Positions 2,379-6,536 of a stretch of 11,421 bases of DNA are shown here, piece after piece. The notes beneath the pieces were generated by a model, which was given only the letters and a program-made list of their open reading frames with translations, searched no databases and was not told the DNA's origin. The translations under genes and the position numbers were made by a program. The stretch is taken from the NCBI GenBank assembly GCA_003224135.1, contig QHYO01000460.1:1-11421 (forward strand), in the 5' to 3' direction. Every line of letters begins with the position of its first letter. The first letter of the stretch is position 1. Source of the DNA: Acidobacteriota bacterium (GTDB lineage Bacteria; Acidobacteriota; Terriglobia; Acidiferrales; UBA7541).

Positions 2379-3995
2379 TTGGATTCATTGCGTATTCTGC
2401 TCGTTGACGATCACGAACCTGTCCGCCGCGGGGTCCGATCCTTGCTATCGTCGCATAGCGACTGGCTTGTATGCGGCGAGGCGGTCGATGGCCTCGATGC
2501 GATTGAGAAAGCAAAAGCGCTTCGCCCAAACGTCGTCTTGATGGACATTTCGATGCCCCGGATGAACGGGCTCGATGCAACGCAGATCTTGCGGCGGGAC
2601 ATGCCAGACTCAAAAATCGTCATCGTCAGCCAGAACGATCCGGCAATGGCTTGTCGCCAAGCAACTGAAGTGGACGCGGCTGGCTACGTCGCGAAGAGTT
2701 CTCTTTCAGATGATTTAGTCCCAACGATCGAGAAGGTGATCAGCCGCGAACCGAAAAACGGGAGCCATCCGATGAGCGCGACCGCATCAAGTTGGCTGCC
2801 AGGTGAAGCCGAGGATCGCCTCCAGCACCTGGCCGCGATCGTGGATTCCTCGGACGACGGGATCATCAGCAAGAATCTCGACGGCGTCATTACCAGTTGG
2901 AATAAAGCTGCGGAACGACTCTTCGGCTACTCCGCCGAAGAAGCCGTCGGACGCCACATCACGCTCATTATTCCTTCCGACCGCCGACACGAAGAGGCGA
3001 TGATTCTTGACCGGCTCAAACGAGGCGAACGCGTGGAGCATTTCGAAACGGTACGCGTGCGCAAAGACGGCGGTATGCTGGATGTTTCCCTGACCATATC
3101 GCCGGTAAAAGACTCGCAAGGCCGCTTCATCGGGGCTTCGAAGATAGCGCGGGACATCACCGCTCAAAAACGCGCCGAACAAACGCTTCGGGAAAACGAG
3201 CAGCGGCTTCGCGCGTTGACCGACGCATTGGAAGCCCAGGTTCGCGCCAGGACCATGGAACTTGAACGCCGAAATAGAGAAGTGCTCCACCAATCCCAAA
3301 AACTCAGAGAGTTGTCGCACCGGTTGATCCGAATCCAGGATGACGAAAGGCGCCATATTGCGCGGGAACTTCATGACAGCGCAGGACAAATCCTCGCTGC
3401 GCTTGGAATGAATCTCGCAACCGTCGTGCGAAACGCGAAATTAGATGCGCCGGAGCTCGCCAGACTGGCCGAGGAAAGCGAACAGATGGTTCGAGAATTG
3501 AGCCAGGAGATACGGACAACATCTTACTTGTTGCATCCGCCGCTTCTGGATGAGTGTGGACTATCTGAATCGCTTCTCTGGTATATTCGCGGACTGAAAG
3601 AACGCAGCGGGCTTGAGGTCACACTAGCTATTCCAGATGACTTCGGACGTCTCACACCCGAGATGGAATTGGTGATATTTCGAATTGTGCAAGAGTGTCT
3701 GACAAATGTGCATCGCCATTCGGGCAGCAGAGTTGCAGCGATTGAGATTAAGCGCGGTTCCGGGAACATAACACTCAGCGTTCAGGATGAGGGCAGCGGC
3801 ATACCTTCGGCAAAACTTCTCGAAATTGAGTCGCAAGGCGGAGGAGTGGGAATTCGCGGAATGCGTGAGCGTGTGCTCCAATGCGGCGGTAAGATGGCCC
3901 TCCAGTCCGGCGCTAGAGGCACGAAAATTTCAGTCAGTTTTCCAGCTGCCGATCTGAGACCGGCCGAAGAAGTTCCCGGCGCGGCGCTCGCTTGA
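2379..3995 (+). CDS. Receiver-PAS-histidine kinase fusion (NarL/HisKA_3-type kinase)
   Basis: A 538-aa cytoplasmic signalling protein without membrane segments. Residues 4-122 form a CheY-like receiver: acidic pair D10/D11, phosphoacceptor D56 in VVLMDISMPRMNGL, switch residue S84 and conserved K106. Residues 145-265 form a PAS domain (VDSSDDGIISKNLDGVITSW, FGYSAEEAVGRH) that ends in the usual SKIARDITAQKRAE linker. A coiled coil (268-318) leads into a HisKA_3 dimerisation domain with phosphoacceptor H332 in RHIARELHDSAGQ. The ATPase domain (about 428-522) has N-box N443 in QECLTNVHRHSG, DEGSGIP and GGGVGIRGMRERV. The receiver is N-terminal, before the sensor, so it may modulate the kinase or be its output. 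I chose TTG 2379 because the receiver begins there (DSLRILLVDDH); GGAGG at 2362-2366 is 12 bases away, so the start is only fairly certain. The kinase belongs to the class that usually partners LuxR/NarL regulators, but none is adjacent. Confidence 0.92.
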   Translation: MDSLRILLVDDHEPVRRGVRSLLSSHSDWLVCGEAVDGLDAIEKAKALRPNVVLMDISMPRMNGLDATQILRRDMPDSKIVIVSQNDPAMACRQATEVDAAGYVAKSSLSDDLVPTIEKVISREPKNGSHPMSATASSWLPGEAEDRLQHLAAIVDSSDDGIISKNLDGVITSWNKAAERLFGYSAEEAVGRHITLIIPSDRRHEEAMILDRLKRGERVEHFETVRVRKDGGMLDVSLTISPVKDSQGRFIGASKIARDITAQKRAEQTLRENEQRLRALTDALEAQVRARTMELERRNREVLHQSQKLRELSHRLIRIQDDERRHIARELHDSAGQILAALGMNLATVVRNAKLDAPELARLAEESEQMVRELSQEIRTTSYLLHPPLLDECGLSESLLWYIRGLKERSGLEVTLAIPDDFGRLTPEMELVIFRIVQECLTNVHRHSGSRVAAIEIKRGSGNITLSVQDEGSGIPSAKLLEIESQGGGVGIRGMRERVLQCGGKMALQSGARGTKISVSFPAADLRPAEEVPGAALA

Positions 3996-4015: not shown

Positions 4016-4041
4016 AGGCGCGTCGCAGAGTTAGGGCGCCT
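4016..4041 (+). terminator. Weak hairpin between convergent genes
   Basis: AGGCGC (4016-4021) can pair with GCGCCT (4036-4041) across a 14-base loop, followed by only TTTCC. It sits where the kinase gene and the XRE-S24 gene converge and overlaps the stop of the latter (4031-4033). The stem is short and the U-tract poor, so it is at best a weak terminator. Confidence 0.18.
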
Positions 4042-4819
4042 TTCCAATCCACCACAAAACCTTTGCCACAATCTTCCATTTCTGTTTTCCGCTCAAGGTA
4101 ATCGATTCGTAGCTGGCATTTTCCGATTGCAGCACAACCGTGTGGTCATAGCGTTTCAGTCTAGAAACGGTCAGCCCTTTGTCCTGATGCGAGGCAATCA
4201 CGATTTTGCCGTTCAAATCGCCGACATTGGACTGCGAAAAATCGACAACGAGAATGTAGCCGTCGTGAATCAGGGGCGACATCGAGTTGCGACGAACACG
4301 CAGACAACTTGTCGTTGATGGATGGGGGCACCAATCTTTGGGCGCCGCGATCATGCCCTCAATCGGAGCGTCCTGCAGCAGCTCATGATCGTCACCCTTT
4401 TCGCCGTGTGATGCTGCTACGGTTTTCAGCAGGGGGATAGCCACGAGTTGAAGCTTTTCATCCGGCTTTGGCTTTCTCGCACCTCCGCCAGCACCTGCGA
4501 TTTCAAGTTTGGGGATCTGTGCCTGCCGCAAGCGTTTTTGCAAGCGCGGTACGACGCGTAGCAAGTCTTCCTTGCTAAGACCCGCTTGTCCCCAAAAGTA
4601 CCAGCACACTGGATCGCCCGCAAGATTTCCCATCTCGATGTAGATGTGCGACGGCGGTTCCGAAATTCCCCGCTCCCATCGCGACACCGCCATGGCGGAG
4701 CAATGGAATGCATCACCAAAGGCGACTTGATTTAGTCCAACTCTGTTGCGTAGGCGGACAATCGCCTTCGCCCACTCCGGCTGGAAAGAAGCACTCGATT
4801 TGTGCCTCGATTTCGCCAT
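4031..4819 (-). CDS. XRE-type HTH / S24 (CI/LexA-like) transcriptional regulator
   Basis: I chose ATG 4819 (262 aa) because GAGG lies 5 bases upstream (GAGGAAGTGATG) and because the longer frame back to 4930 would run through the apparent promoter and operator. Residues about 19-70 form an XRE helix-turn-helix (AIVRLRNRVGLNQVAFGDAF, then AMAVSRWERGISEPP). A linker rich in K, G and Q follows. The C-terminal S24 domain (about 160-255) has RVRRNSMSPLIHDGYILVVD, placing the conserved Ser at residue 179, and GDLNGKIVIASHQDKGLTVSRLKRY. In LexA the catalytic Lys lies in VTVKRLK; the equivalent here appears to be S219 in LTVSRLK. It may therefore not self-cleave and could respond to a ligand or partner instead; K222 is nearby but shifted. 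The gene converges with the kinase gene and diverges from the Crp-like gene. A perfect palindrome overlaps its own apparent promoter, which suggests autorepression. Confidence 0.9.
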   Translation of the reverse strand: MAKSRHKSSASFQPEWAKAIVRLRNRVGLNQVAFGDAFHCSAMAVSRWERGISEPPSHIYIEMGNLAGDPVCWYFWGQAGLSKEDLLRVVPRLQKRLRQAQIPKLEIAGAGGGARKPKPDEKLQLVAIPLLKTVAASHGEKGDDHELLQDAPIEGMIAAPKDWCPHPSTTSCLRVRRNSMSPLIHDGYILVVDFSQSNVGDLNGKIVIASHQDKGLTVSRLKRYDHTVVLQSENASYESITLSGKQKWKIVAKVLWWIGKAP

Positions 4820-4866: not shown

Positions 4867-4896
4867 AATGTACGCCAGCGTACCCAACCTTGGCAA
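4867..4896 (-). promoter_or_regulatory. Apparent promoter of the XRE-S24 gene
   Basis: On the minus strand TTGCCA (4896-4891) is followed after 18 bases by TACATT (4872-4867), 47 bases before the chosen ATG. The palindrome at 4870-4883 fills the downstream half of the spacer and the first three bases of the -10 hexamer. A repressor bound there should block transcription. This is motif reading, not an experimentally known start. Confidence 0.45.
4870..4883. promoter_or_regulatory. Palindromic operator candidate 1 (GTACGC-CA-GCGTAC)
   Basis: A perfect 6-2-6 inverted repeat, GTACGCCAGCGTAC, in the divergent gap between the XRE-S24 gene and the Crp-like gene. The same two half-sites recur at 6084-6097 upstream of the receiver gene. 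It is closer to the XRE-S24 gene (50 bases) than to the Crp-like gene (157 bases) and overlaps the -10 candidate of the former. HTH-S24 dimers bind this kind of symmetric site, so the adjacent regulator is the most likely reader; that is an inference. Confidence 0.7.
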
Positions 4897-5040
4897 GGGG
4901 GAGGCAGGTGGCTTCTTGGCAATCTATCATTCCCTACTAGTCATGGGCGTTAGTCAGGAGTATGGTTAGGTTGTCCCCTCGCATGACGCCACTACGACGT
5001 CCTGCGAACAGACGGTTTTCGCCTCGCAAGGAGCCGCGGT

Positions 5041-5811
5041 TTGCCGAATGAGAAATCCGATATTCGACGTAATAAAGCCGCTGTCCCAATCGGTTCCGAT
5101 GGCAATGGCAGCCAGTCGATACAGAATCATATTCTGCTGGCCCTTCCGCGCAGCGTTCGCAGTGCCATGCTCGCGAAATCGCAATTTATCCAATTGCCTA
5201 CTCCCTATGTTCTGAATGAGGTAGGCGCGCCGATTCAGCACGCGTATTTCCTTGAAAGCGGGCTTTCTTCGATTCTGAACGTATTGCAAAACGGAAAAAG
5301 TGTTGAAGTCGGGCTCACCGGCAAGGAAGGTTTTGTCGGCGTACCTCTCATCGCCGGTTTCAAAACAAGTCCCACGCGCGTCATCATGCAAGTCGGAGGA
5401 ACAGCGTTCCGGATCGCCGCCAAAGACATTAAGGTGTTCTTAAAAGACTATCCAGCGCTCGATAGAAGCTTGCAAAGGTACTCGCAGGAAATTTCCTTGC
5501 AGGCTGCTCAGACTGCGGTATGCAACCGAGTGCACGAAATCGATCAGCGGCTGGCCCGATGGCTGCTGATGAGCCAGGATCGAATCGATAACGAATTGGT
5601 TCCATTAACACAAGAATTTTTGGCGCACATGCTCGGCACCCGACGGGCAAGCGTGACCGTTGCGGCCGGAATGTTGCAAAGGGCGGGCCTAATCAGCTAT
5701 GTACGCGGCCAATTGAAGATTGAAGACCGTGCCCGCCTGGAGAGCACGGTTTGCGAGTGCTACGGAACCTTGAAACAGAGACTGGACACGTGGAAATCGG
5801 AGTCTCTGTAG
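5041..5811 (+). CDS. Crp/Fnr-family transcriptional regulator
   Basis: A 256-aa protein. TTG 5041 is supported by AAGGAG at 5028-5033, 7 bases upstream, and by the absence of a better start before the domain. Residues about 29-145 form a cNMP-binding-like beta barrel (HILLALPRSVRSAML, QHAYFLESGLSSIL, VEVGLTGKEGFVGVP). A long dimerisation helix follows (SLQAAQTAVCNRVHEIDQRL), then a Crp-type winged helix at about 187-230 (LTQEFLAHMLGTRRASVTVA, LQRAGLISYVRGQLKI). The canonical Arg-Ser pair that contacts the cAMP phosphate in E. coli CRP is not evident in the GVPLIAGFKTSPTRV segment. There is no N-terminal Cys cluster as in FNR, so the signal is unknown. The 57-aa gene follows after 37 bases and is probably cotranscribed. 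It diverges from the XRE-S24 gene, so operator 1 might influence it too. Confidence 0.93.
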   Translation: MPNEKSDIRRNKAAVPIGSDGNGSQSIQNHILLALPRSVRSAMLAKSQFIQLPTPYVLNEVGAPIQHAYFLESGLSSILNVLQNGKSVEVGLTGKEGFVGVPLIAGFKTSPTRVIMQVGGTAFRIAAKDIKVFLKDYPALDRSLQRYSQEISLQAAQTAVCNRVHEIDQRLARWLLMSQDRIDNELVPLTQEFLAHMLGTRRASVTVAAGMLQRAGLISYVRGQLKIEDRARLESTVCECYGTLKQRLDTWKSESL

Positions 5812-5832
5812 CTGACCGAATATTTGATTGCA

Positions 5833-5850
5833 ACGGAGGAGGTGCTCCGT
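5833..5850 (+). promoter_or_regulatory. Hairpin covering the ribosome binding site and start of the 57-aa gene
   Basis: ACGGAG (5833-5838) pairs perfectly with CTCCGT (5845-5850) across a 6-base loop, GAGGTG. The hairpin includes most of the strong Shine-Dalgarno stretch GGAGGAGG (5835-5842) and the first two bases of the GTG start at 5849. Folding in the mRNA should reduce initiation unless translation of the upstream Crp-like gene opens it. The pairing is seen; the effect is inferred. Confidence 0.4.
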
Positions 5851-6022
5851 GAACGAGCGAATGTGGCGAAAGTTGTACGAATTGGCCCTATCGGAACGTG
5901 ACCCGCAGAAATTAAGCGATCGCATTTACGAAACCGAAGCGGCAATTTTCCTGCGTCTGCAAACTTTGGAGAAAGGGCCGGTTTCTCAAGCTGAGCTTGA
6001 CGAAAGAAGTTCGGTGTACTAG
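5849..6022 (+). CDS. Small protein of unknown function (57 aa)
   Basis: I chose GTG 5849 because GGAGGAGG lies 6 bases upstream; the open frame also has an earlier TTG at 5828, but that has no ribosome binding site. The product is a soluble, charged, mostly helical protein: NERMWRKLYELALSERDPQK, then LSDRIYETEAAIFLRLQTLE, then a polar tail ending SSVY. It has no Cys, signal peptide or membrane segment. The pattern W-x-x-L...A..E.DP.KL...I resembles, from memory, small hypothetical proteins common near regulators in Acidobacteriota, but I know of no established function. It follows the Crp-like gene by 37 bases and precedes the receiver gene, suggesting a role as a partner or small adaptor. 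A hairpin over its start hints at coupled or regulated translation. Confidence 0.7.
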   Translation: MNERMWRKLYELALSERDPQKLSDRIYETEAAIFLRLQTLEKGPVSQAELDERSSVY

Positions 6023-6083
6023 GACTCTAGCGCCGCTTCTTCACATACGGCAAAACCCTCATTGCGCGTCCAATCGCAAATTC

Positions 6084-6097
6084 GTACGCTAGCGTAC
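6084..6097. promoter_or_regulatory. Palindromic operator candidate 2 (GTACGC-TA-GCGTAC)
   Basis: A perfect 14-bp palindrome, GTACGCTAGCGTAC, 67 bases before the receiver gene. It shares both 6-base half-sites and the 2-base spacing with 4870-4883. Its last three bases begin the hexamer TACTAT (6095-6100), a good -10 candidate; no good -35 is visible, with 6071-6077 being poor. The positioning is the same as at the XRE-S24 promoter. Other half-sites in the window, such as 3051, 5339 and 5701, lie inside genes and are not paired. Confidence 0.7.
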
Positions 6098-6143
6098 TAT
6101 TGAGGTTCCCCGTTCCGGGTGCTCTCCAGCGTTTTGGCTGTCA

Positions 6144-6164: not shown

Positions 6165-6536
6165 ATGCCAAAGTCTATTCTCATTGTCGATGACAGCCCT
6201 CAGATTCGAAAACTCATTCGCAGTTATTTTGATTGTGAAACGGAGTTCGAAGTTTGCGGTGAAGCGGTCGACGGATTGGATGCGGTTGAAAAATTCACAC
6301 TGCTGAATCCCGACCTGATCATTTTGGATGCGTCCATGCCGCGTATGAACGGCCTGCAGGCAGCGCGCATCCTGCGATCCATGGGGAGTGAACTTCCGAT
6401 AATTTTATTTACGATGCATGCGGAAGCGATTTCAGACTCCGACGCTTCCGCTGCCGGGATTACCTCAGTCGTTTCCAAGATGGCGAGCATCTCCGAACTT
6501 TCGAAATGCGTGGAAGGTCTGCTGCGATACGCATAG
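6165..6536 (+). CDS. Stand-alone CheY-like response regulator receiver
   Basis: A 123-aa single receiver domain with a GGGAGG site 6 bases before its ATG. Acidic pair D9/D10 (ILIVDDSPQIRKLIRS), phosphoacceptor D55 in LIILDASMPRMNGL, switch T83 (IILFTMHAEA) and conserved K105 (SVVSKMASISEL) are all present, so it should be phosphorylatable. There is no output domain, so it must act by protein contact or in a phosphorelay. It resembles the N-terminal receiver of the kinase at 2379-3995, sharing CGEAVDGLDA and SMPRMNGL plus the following A..ILR. That makes the kinase a reasonable cognate candidate. A perfect palindrome lies across its apparent -10, suggesting control by the nearby XRE-S24 protein. 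The 157 bases after its stop, up to the convergent ribokinase gene, hold no clear terminator; TGCTGC/GCAGCA (6520-6525/6536-6541) pair around the stop but lack a U-tract. Confidence 0.93.
   Translation: MPKSILIVDDSPQIRKLIRSYFDCETEFEVCGEAVDGLDAVEKFTLLNPDLIILDASMPRMNGLQAARILRSMGSELPIILFTMHAEAISDSDASAAGITSVVSKMASISELSKCVEGLLRYA

Follow-up and report, generated by a model that had tools for sequence, protein, structure and literature searches.

A conserved palindrome pair at an XRE-S24 and a receiver promoter in an Acidobacteriota order, probably read by the adjoining CRP/FNR-type protein

Two identical palindromes were analyzed in an 11,421-nucleotide stretch of Acidobacteriota DNA (contig QHYO01000460.1; the whole stretch is referred to as the window), where they lie at the promoters of an XRE-S24 repressor-like gene and of a phosphorelay receiver gene. 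On sequence comparison, both are probably operators of a CRP/FNR-type protein encoded between them (5041-5811), which would repress the two promoters, and the XRE-S24 protein would read another palindrome. The CRP-type neighbour is thus a more likely reader than XRE-S24. The main features are as follows.

4870-4883, no strand: palindrome 1, GTACGCTGGCGTAC when read towards XRE-S24; lies in the promoter spacer and overlaps the first half of the XRE-S24 -10
6084-6097, no strand: palindrome 2, GTACGCTAGCGTAC; precedes the receiver gene by 67 bp
4867-4872, minus strand: candidate -10 of XRE-S24, TACATT; TACNNT in six of six motif-bearing XRE-S24 promoters
4891-4896, minus strand: candidate -35 of XRE-S24, TTGCCA; 18 bp from the -10, five of six bases matching
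6095-6100, plus strand: candidate -10 of the receiver gene, TACTAT; overlaps palindrome 2, no convincing -35
4925-4952, minus strand: TAAC-N8-CTAG-N8-GNTA, proposed XRE-S24 operator; exact in nine of 11 close XRE-S24 loci
5041-5811, plus strand: CRP/FNR-type regulator, 256 aa, recognition helix TRRASVT; divergent from XRE-S24, proposed reader of palindromes 1 and 2
4031-4819, minus strand: XRE-S24 gene, 262 aa, helix-turn-helix (HTH) and S24 domain without the catalytic lysine (profiles, alignment)
6165-6536, plus strand: single-domain receiver, PF00072 (profile match)

A pattern search of the window located GTACGCNNGCGTAC (the strict motif) exactly at 4870-4883 and 6084-6097, where the sequence-only reading had reported a perfect palindrome. 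That reading had also held a chance pair to be unlikely. Two copies were never obtained in 200 dinucleotide shuffles of the window, and the window's own genome (G000; 4.54 Mb, 804 contigs, 85% complete) contained exactly these two, 1.2 kb apart, and none of the control, the motif read backwards; the motif is not spread through the genome. The relaxed motif (GTACG-N4-CGTAC) returned the same two copies only, with three for the control. When up to two mismatches were allowed, the motif was found at 164 places and the control at 229; the motif is thus distinctive only in its perfect form. None of four exact 14-mers occurred in the papers searched. As had been stated, the final TAC of each copy opens the candidate -10, TACATT for XRE-S24 and TACTAT for the receiver gene. 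The two copies are intergenic, as claimed, if XRE-S24 starts at 4819, which was assumed because relatives align from there; an alternative 299-aa frame from 4930 would contain palindrome 1, and 299 aa is also the listed length of the closest homologue (P0001, 98%).

XRE-S24 relatives were sought in 95 genomes of the order, 21 of which gave matches. The close clade comprised 11 loci at at least 57% identity (window included), and 17 loci with XRE-S24 at this level or a CRP-type protein at at least 51% were compared in total; G084 was added to this set, and its shorter tandem CRP copy (49%) was omitted. Six loci were CRP-only (G468, two copies in G461, G457, the second G423 copy, and G084), the second G461 copy being interrupted, through either a stop or a change of frame. 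Two pairs are close to each other, G464/G467 (near-identical) and G484/G485, and L075/L076, taken as the same contigs as G467/G469, were counted once.

The relaxed motif was exact before XRE-S24 in six of the 11 close loci (G000, G423, G482, G484, G485, and G487), 18-68 bp upstream of the aligned start and, in G423, 26 bp from the first ATG. The expectation that orthologous promoters would share it was thus borne out in part, as the other five (G464, G467, G469, G444, and the second G487 locus) lacked an exact copy. G469 had two one-mismatch copies, one between the CRP stop and a small open reading frame (ORF) and one before the receiver gene. Second exact copies preceded receiver genes in G000 and G482, and the G482 gene is likewise a single-domain receiver (PF00072 alone, 75.9 bits). 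The proposed pair of operators, one at the XRE-S24 promoter and one at that of the receiver, is local and conserved. In G484 and G485, the second exact copy instead separates a helicase-like gene from a small ORF that is conserved (L113 7430-7443, L114 7815-7828).

The six motif-positive XRE-S24 genomes held 16 distinct relaxed sites (overlapping G487 contig ends merged) against 9.6 expected (P 0.04): six at XRE-S24, four more as second sites of these loci, one where a sigma-54-type response regulator frame begins (G484), and five in open frames of at least 500 codons. G457, G468, and G461 together had 14 sites against 3.9 expected, or 15 against 6.0 (P 0.0014) with G084 added. Enrichment by count alone was rejected, since the relaxed motif genome-wide was not above the backwards control (38 sites against 80 in 104 Mb of 24 family genomes without either gene, chosen by the authors), and only its location is informative. 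By a crude measure, lying in an open frame of at least 200 codons, 25 of the 27 examinable background sites (from 38) were in such frames, compared with 6/10 sites outside the CRP locus in CRP-only genomes and 7/14 sites at XRE/CRP loci. The strict motif occurred in 36 of 396 genomes of a phylum sample (G000 included), apparently as background, with 27 of 29 examined sites from other genomes in such frames by the same crude test. A small conserved regulon at the XRE-S24 and receiver promoters is well supported. The original observation stands and is stronger than first claimed.

XRE-S24 and CRP genes adjoin in nine close loci; therefore, loci with only one of them were examined. An exact motif copy was present at eight of 15 CRP loci and at neither of the two XRE-S24 loci where no CRP gene was visible (G444, a 97% complete genome that has no close CRP, and the contig-end G487 locus), which had no copy even with one mismatch. 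G468 and one G461 locus each carried two exact relaxed copies around the CRP orthologue; those in G461 lie between CRP and a divergent 299-aa frame and directly after CRP. No XRE-S24 match was found in a search of these two genomes (55% and 85% complete, respectively). In this small set of loci, the motif accompanied XRE-S24 without CRP at 0/2 loci and was present in two incomplete genomes without XRE-S24. XRE-S24 had been named the natural reader of the pair. With the motif persisting at the CRP gene without XRE-S24 and missing at G444, that assignment was set aside and kept as a rival; autorepression by XRE-S24 via palindrome 1 is less well supported.

A different palindrome follows XRE-S24. 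Read towards the gene, TAAC-N8-CTAG-N8-GNTA was exact in G000, G467, G469, G444, G482, G423, G484, G485, and G464, one base off at the second G487 locus, and absent at the other. G444 has it without CRP, none of the six CRP-only loci has it, and the exact form was absent from 17 more distant XRE-S24 stretches examined. Shuffles gave a chance expectation of 0.2 in 387 kb, for a pattern drawn by eye from the same loci that were then counted. In a second XRE-S24 group (42-48% identity), mostly without a CRP gene in the stretch examined, a CTAACATAAATGTTAG-like palindrome, likewise derived from its own four loci, was found in 4/10 loci roughly 45-75 bp upstream. This pattern fits XRE-S24 as the reader of TAAC/GTTA arms, leaving GTACG-N4-CGTAC to the CRP-type protein. 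A further exact TAAC-N8-CTAG-N8-GNTA was seen in G423 (L112 9260-9287), where it precedes by about 30 bp an uncharacterised small ORF that lies downstream of XRE-S24.

The CRP-type protein matched the Crp-type HTH family PF13545 (60.3 bits, cut-off 27) and, below the cut-off of 27.5, PF00027 (cyclic nucleoside monophosphate-type sensor, 24.4 bits); a fold match over residues 24-240 assigned it to the CRP/FNR fold. The half-sites of E. coli CRP and FNR are TGTGA or TTGAT, and NtcA has a non-acidic residue at the position of CRP Glu181. The window protein shares the fold and the palindromic half-site logic with E. coli FNR and CRP, but its half-site would be GTACG, and the base contacts Arg180-Glu181-Arg185 of E. 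coli CRP (excerpt of PMC12531629) differ from its helix TRRASVT. Both window copies have the form GTA-N8-TAC, a CRP-family operator form that also argues against XRE-S24 as the reader: an excerpt of PMC3898017 gives GTAN8TAC as the consensus of NtcA, a cyanobacterial member of the CRP family. The likeness to NtcA consists of the fold and a 14-bp palindrome of this form. However, identity to NtcA chains was 17-19% in structural alignments, and a profile search of PDB sequences at E 0.001 matched no NtcA chain, only 3dv8. The window site also fixes CG beside each arm, and relaxed sites here number 1-6 per genome, compared with 2,424 NtcA sites in Anabaena (same excerpt).

If the CRP-type protein is the reader, its dimer would bind GTACG-N4-CGTAC as a GTA-N8-TAC site. 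At the XRE-S24 promoter, where the site lies between the -35 and the -10 and overlaps the latter, the bound protein would block RNA polymerase and repress; NtcA represses where its box lies downstream of the -35 (excerpt of PMC3898017). At the receiver promoter, the site runs into the -10, and the bound protein would again block polymerase. Repression there is less certain because, although the site and TACTAT overlap, the promoter lacks an evident -35. XRE-S24 would most likely bind TAAC-N8-CTAG-N8-GNTA in the shared gap and act on CRP, on itself, or on both. In the other five motif-positive relatives, the XRE-S24 -35 reads TTGACA, TTTAAA, TTTGCA, TTTGCA, and TTGCGC, 16-17 bp from the -10. 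The sixth -10 base was T on the gene side of 10/14 related sites and on the other side of 5/14 (Fisher P 0.13), but it was T in 6/6 XRE promoters; a -10 register conserved across all sites was rejected as not significant.

Several observations weigh against assigning the pair to the CRP-type protein. The motif lies inside the XRE-S24 core promoter in all six positive XRE-S24 loci, the classical place of an autorepressor, and the best receiver -35 candidate matches only 3/6 bases. G464, G467, G457, and the second G461 copy keep the helix as TRRASVT/VRRASVT yet the stretches examined there contain no motif, even with one mismatch allowed. Only a one-mismatch copy is present at the second G423 copy and in G084 (TRRSSVT), that of G084 about 700 bp upstream. 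The helix is thus not always accompanied by the site. XRE-S24 could be missing from the G468 and G461 assemblies because of their incompleteness, and XRE-S24 without CRP was testable at two loci only, one ending 486 bp upstream.

Among the alternatives, XRE-S24 as the reader of both palindromes, with autorepression and repression of the receiver gene, is unlikely, though far from negligible. It draws on the palindrome covering the XRE-S24 spacer and -10 in 6/11 close loci, with TTG-like -35s in most, and self-regulation from the upstream palindrome of the second group looks plausible. It is opposed by the single-gene loci described above and by the TAAC palindrome, which follows XRE-S24 and resembles that of the second group. 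Shared or competitive use of the sites by the two proteins, or a third regulator as their reader, is improbable. Co-occurrence cannot fully separate the two proteins at the nine loci where they are neighbours, and G461 has a second CRP-type protein beside its site; among the partly annotated genes of the motif loci, no further DNA-binding gene was seen to recur, and the receiver has no DNA-binding domain. Chance repeats without function are scarcely credible, despite the genome-wide count of the relaxed motif, as they are contradicted by conservation: the only two strict copies in the genome both lie at promoters, and the same kind of place is occupied in five further genomes.

The XRE-S24 protein resembles the P22 C2-type repressor in its HTH profile match (E 4.2e-5) and LexA in its S24 domain (PF00717, 70.5 bits), where the nucleophile Ser-Met aligns to LexA. 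It differs in having Ser where LexA chain 1jhf has the catalytic Lys, as do 109 of 120 homologues (nine unreadable), while G000's own LexA keeps Lys. It also has AAS where LexA has the Ala-Gly cleavage site AAG; VAAG occurs in 25/120 homologues, in a loosely aligned region. SOS control by self-cleavage was rejected, as the catalytic lysine is missing, and the protein is probably not self-cleaving. A structure model was too poor for use (predicted local distance difference test score 51), and the literature retrieved in part contained nothing on S24 domains without the dyad.

The remaining window genes are as follows.

5849-6022, plus strand: 57-aa small ORF; tblastn found relatives close to XRE-S24 in G469, G444, and G464
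1890-2234: STAS gene, upstream
2379-3995: receiver-PAS-histidine kinase gene, upstream

No Rfam family was matched in the window. CRP-gene leaders in relatives (window 4999-5032) could form a hairpin hiding the ribosome site, with CCTTGC/GCAAGG paired and a AAATCTGACA-like loop; it folded so in G485, G468, and G084, with paired changes seen by eye in G464/G467, and the window's imperfect hairpin did not fold that way. In G461, the 299-aa frame (L232 5644-6543) is a receiver remnant fused to the second CRP/FNR-type protein; it is transcribed divergently from the close CRP orthologue, and the motif lies in the gap. In the CRP-only genome G457, GTACGCCGCCGTAC (L286 3374-3387) lies about 58 bp before a gene resembling, by eye, an HU-type DNA-binding protein. 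G411 and G421 (L295/L304), without a close CRP, carry A/T-centred variants of GTACG-N4-CGTAC next to a gene that is similar in both and, by eye, resembles one for a membrane protein; another regulator may be involved.

Tentatively, the locus may be a two-repressor module, so far found in one Acidobacteriota order, in which a CRP/FNR-type protein reading GTACG-N4-CGTAC and an XRE-S24 protein that has lost self-cleavage, each reading its own palindrome in their shared gap, would form a cross-regulating switch setting the level of a single-domain phosphorelay receiver; the cross-wiring, like any effector, would be conjectural. If true, this would provide an operator for a CRP/FNR group that is large (7245 of the 8000 candidates scored matched) but little studied; the partly retrieved literature contained nothing on Crp regulons in Acidobacteria. 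It would also tie the supply of a receiver to a CRP-type sensor and to an S24 repressor that probably does not cleave itself, in a lineage whose regulation has been little studied. The locus illustrates that a repressor adjoining a palindrome can be wrongly credited as its reader.
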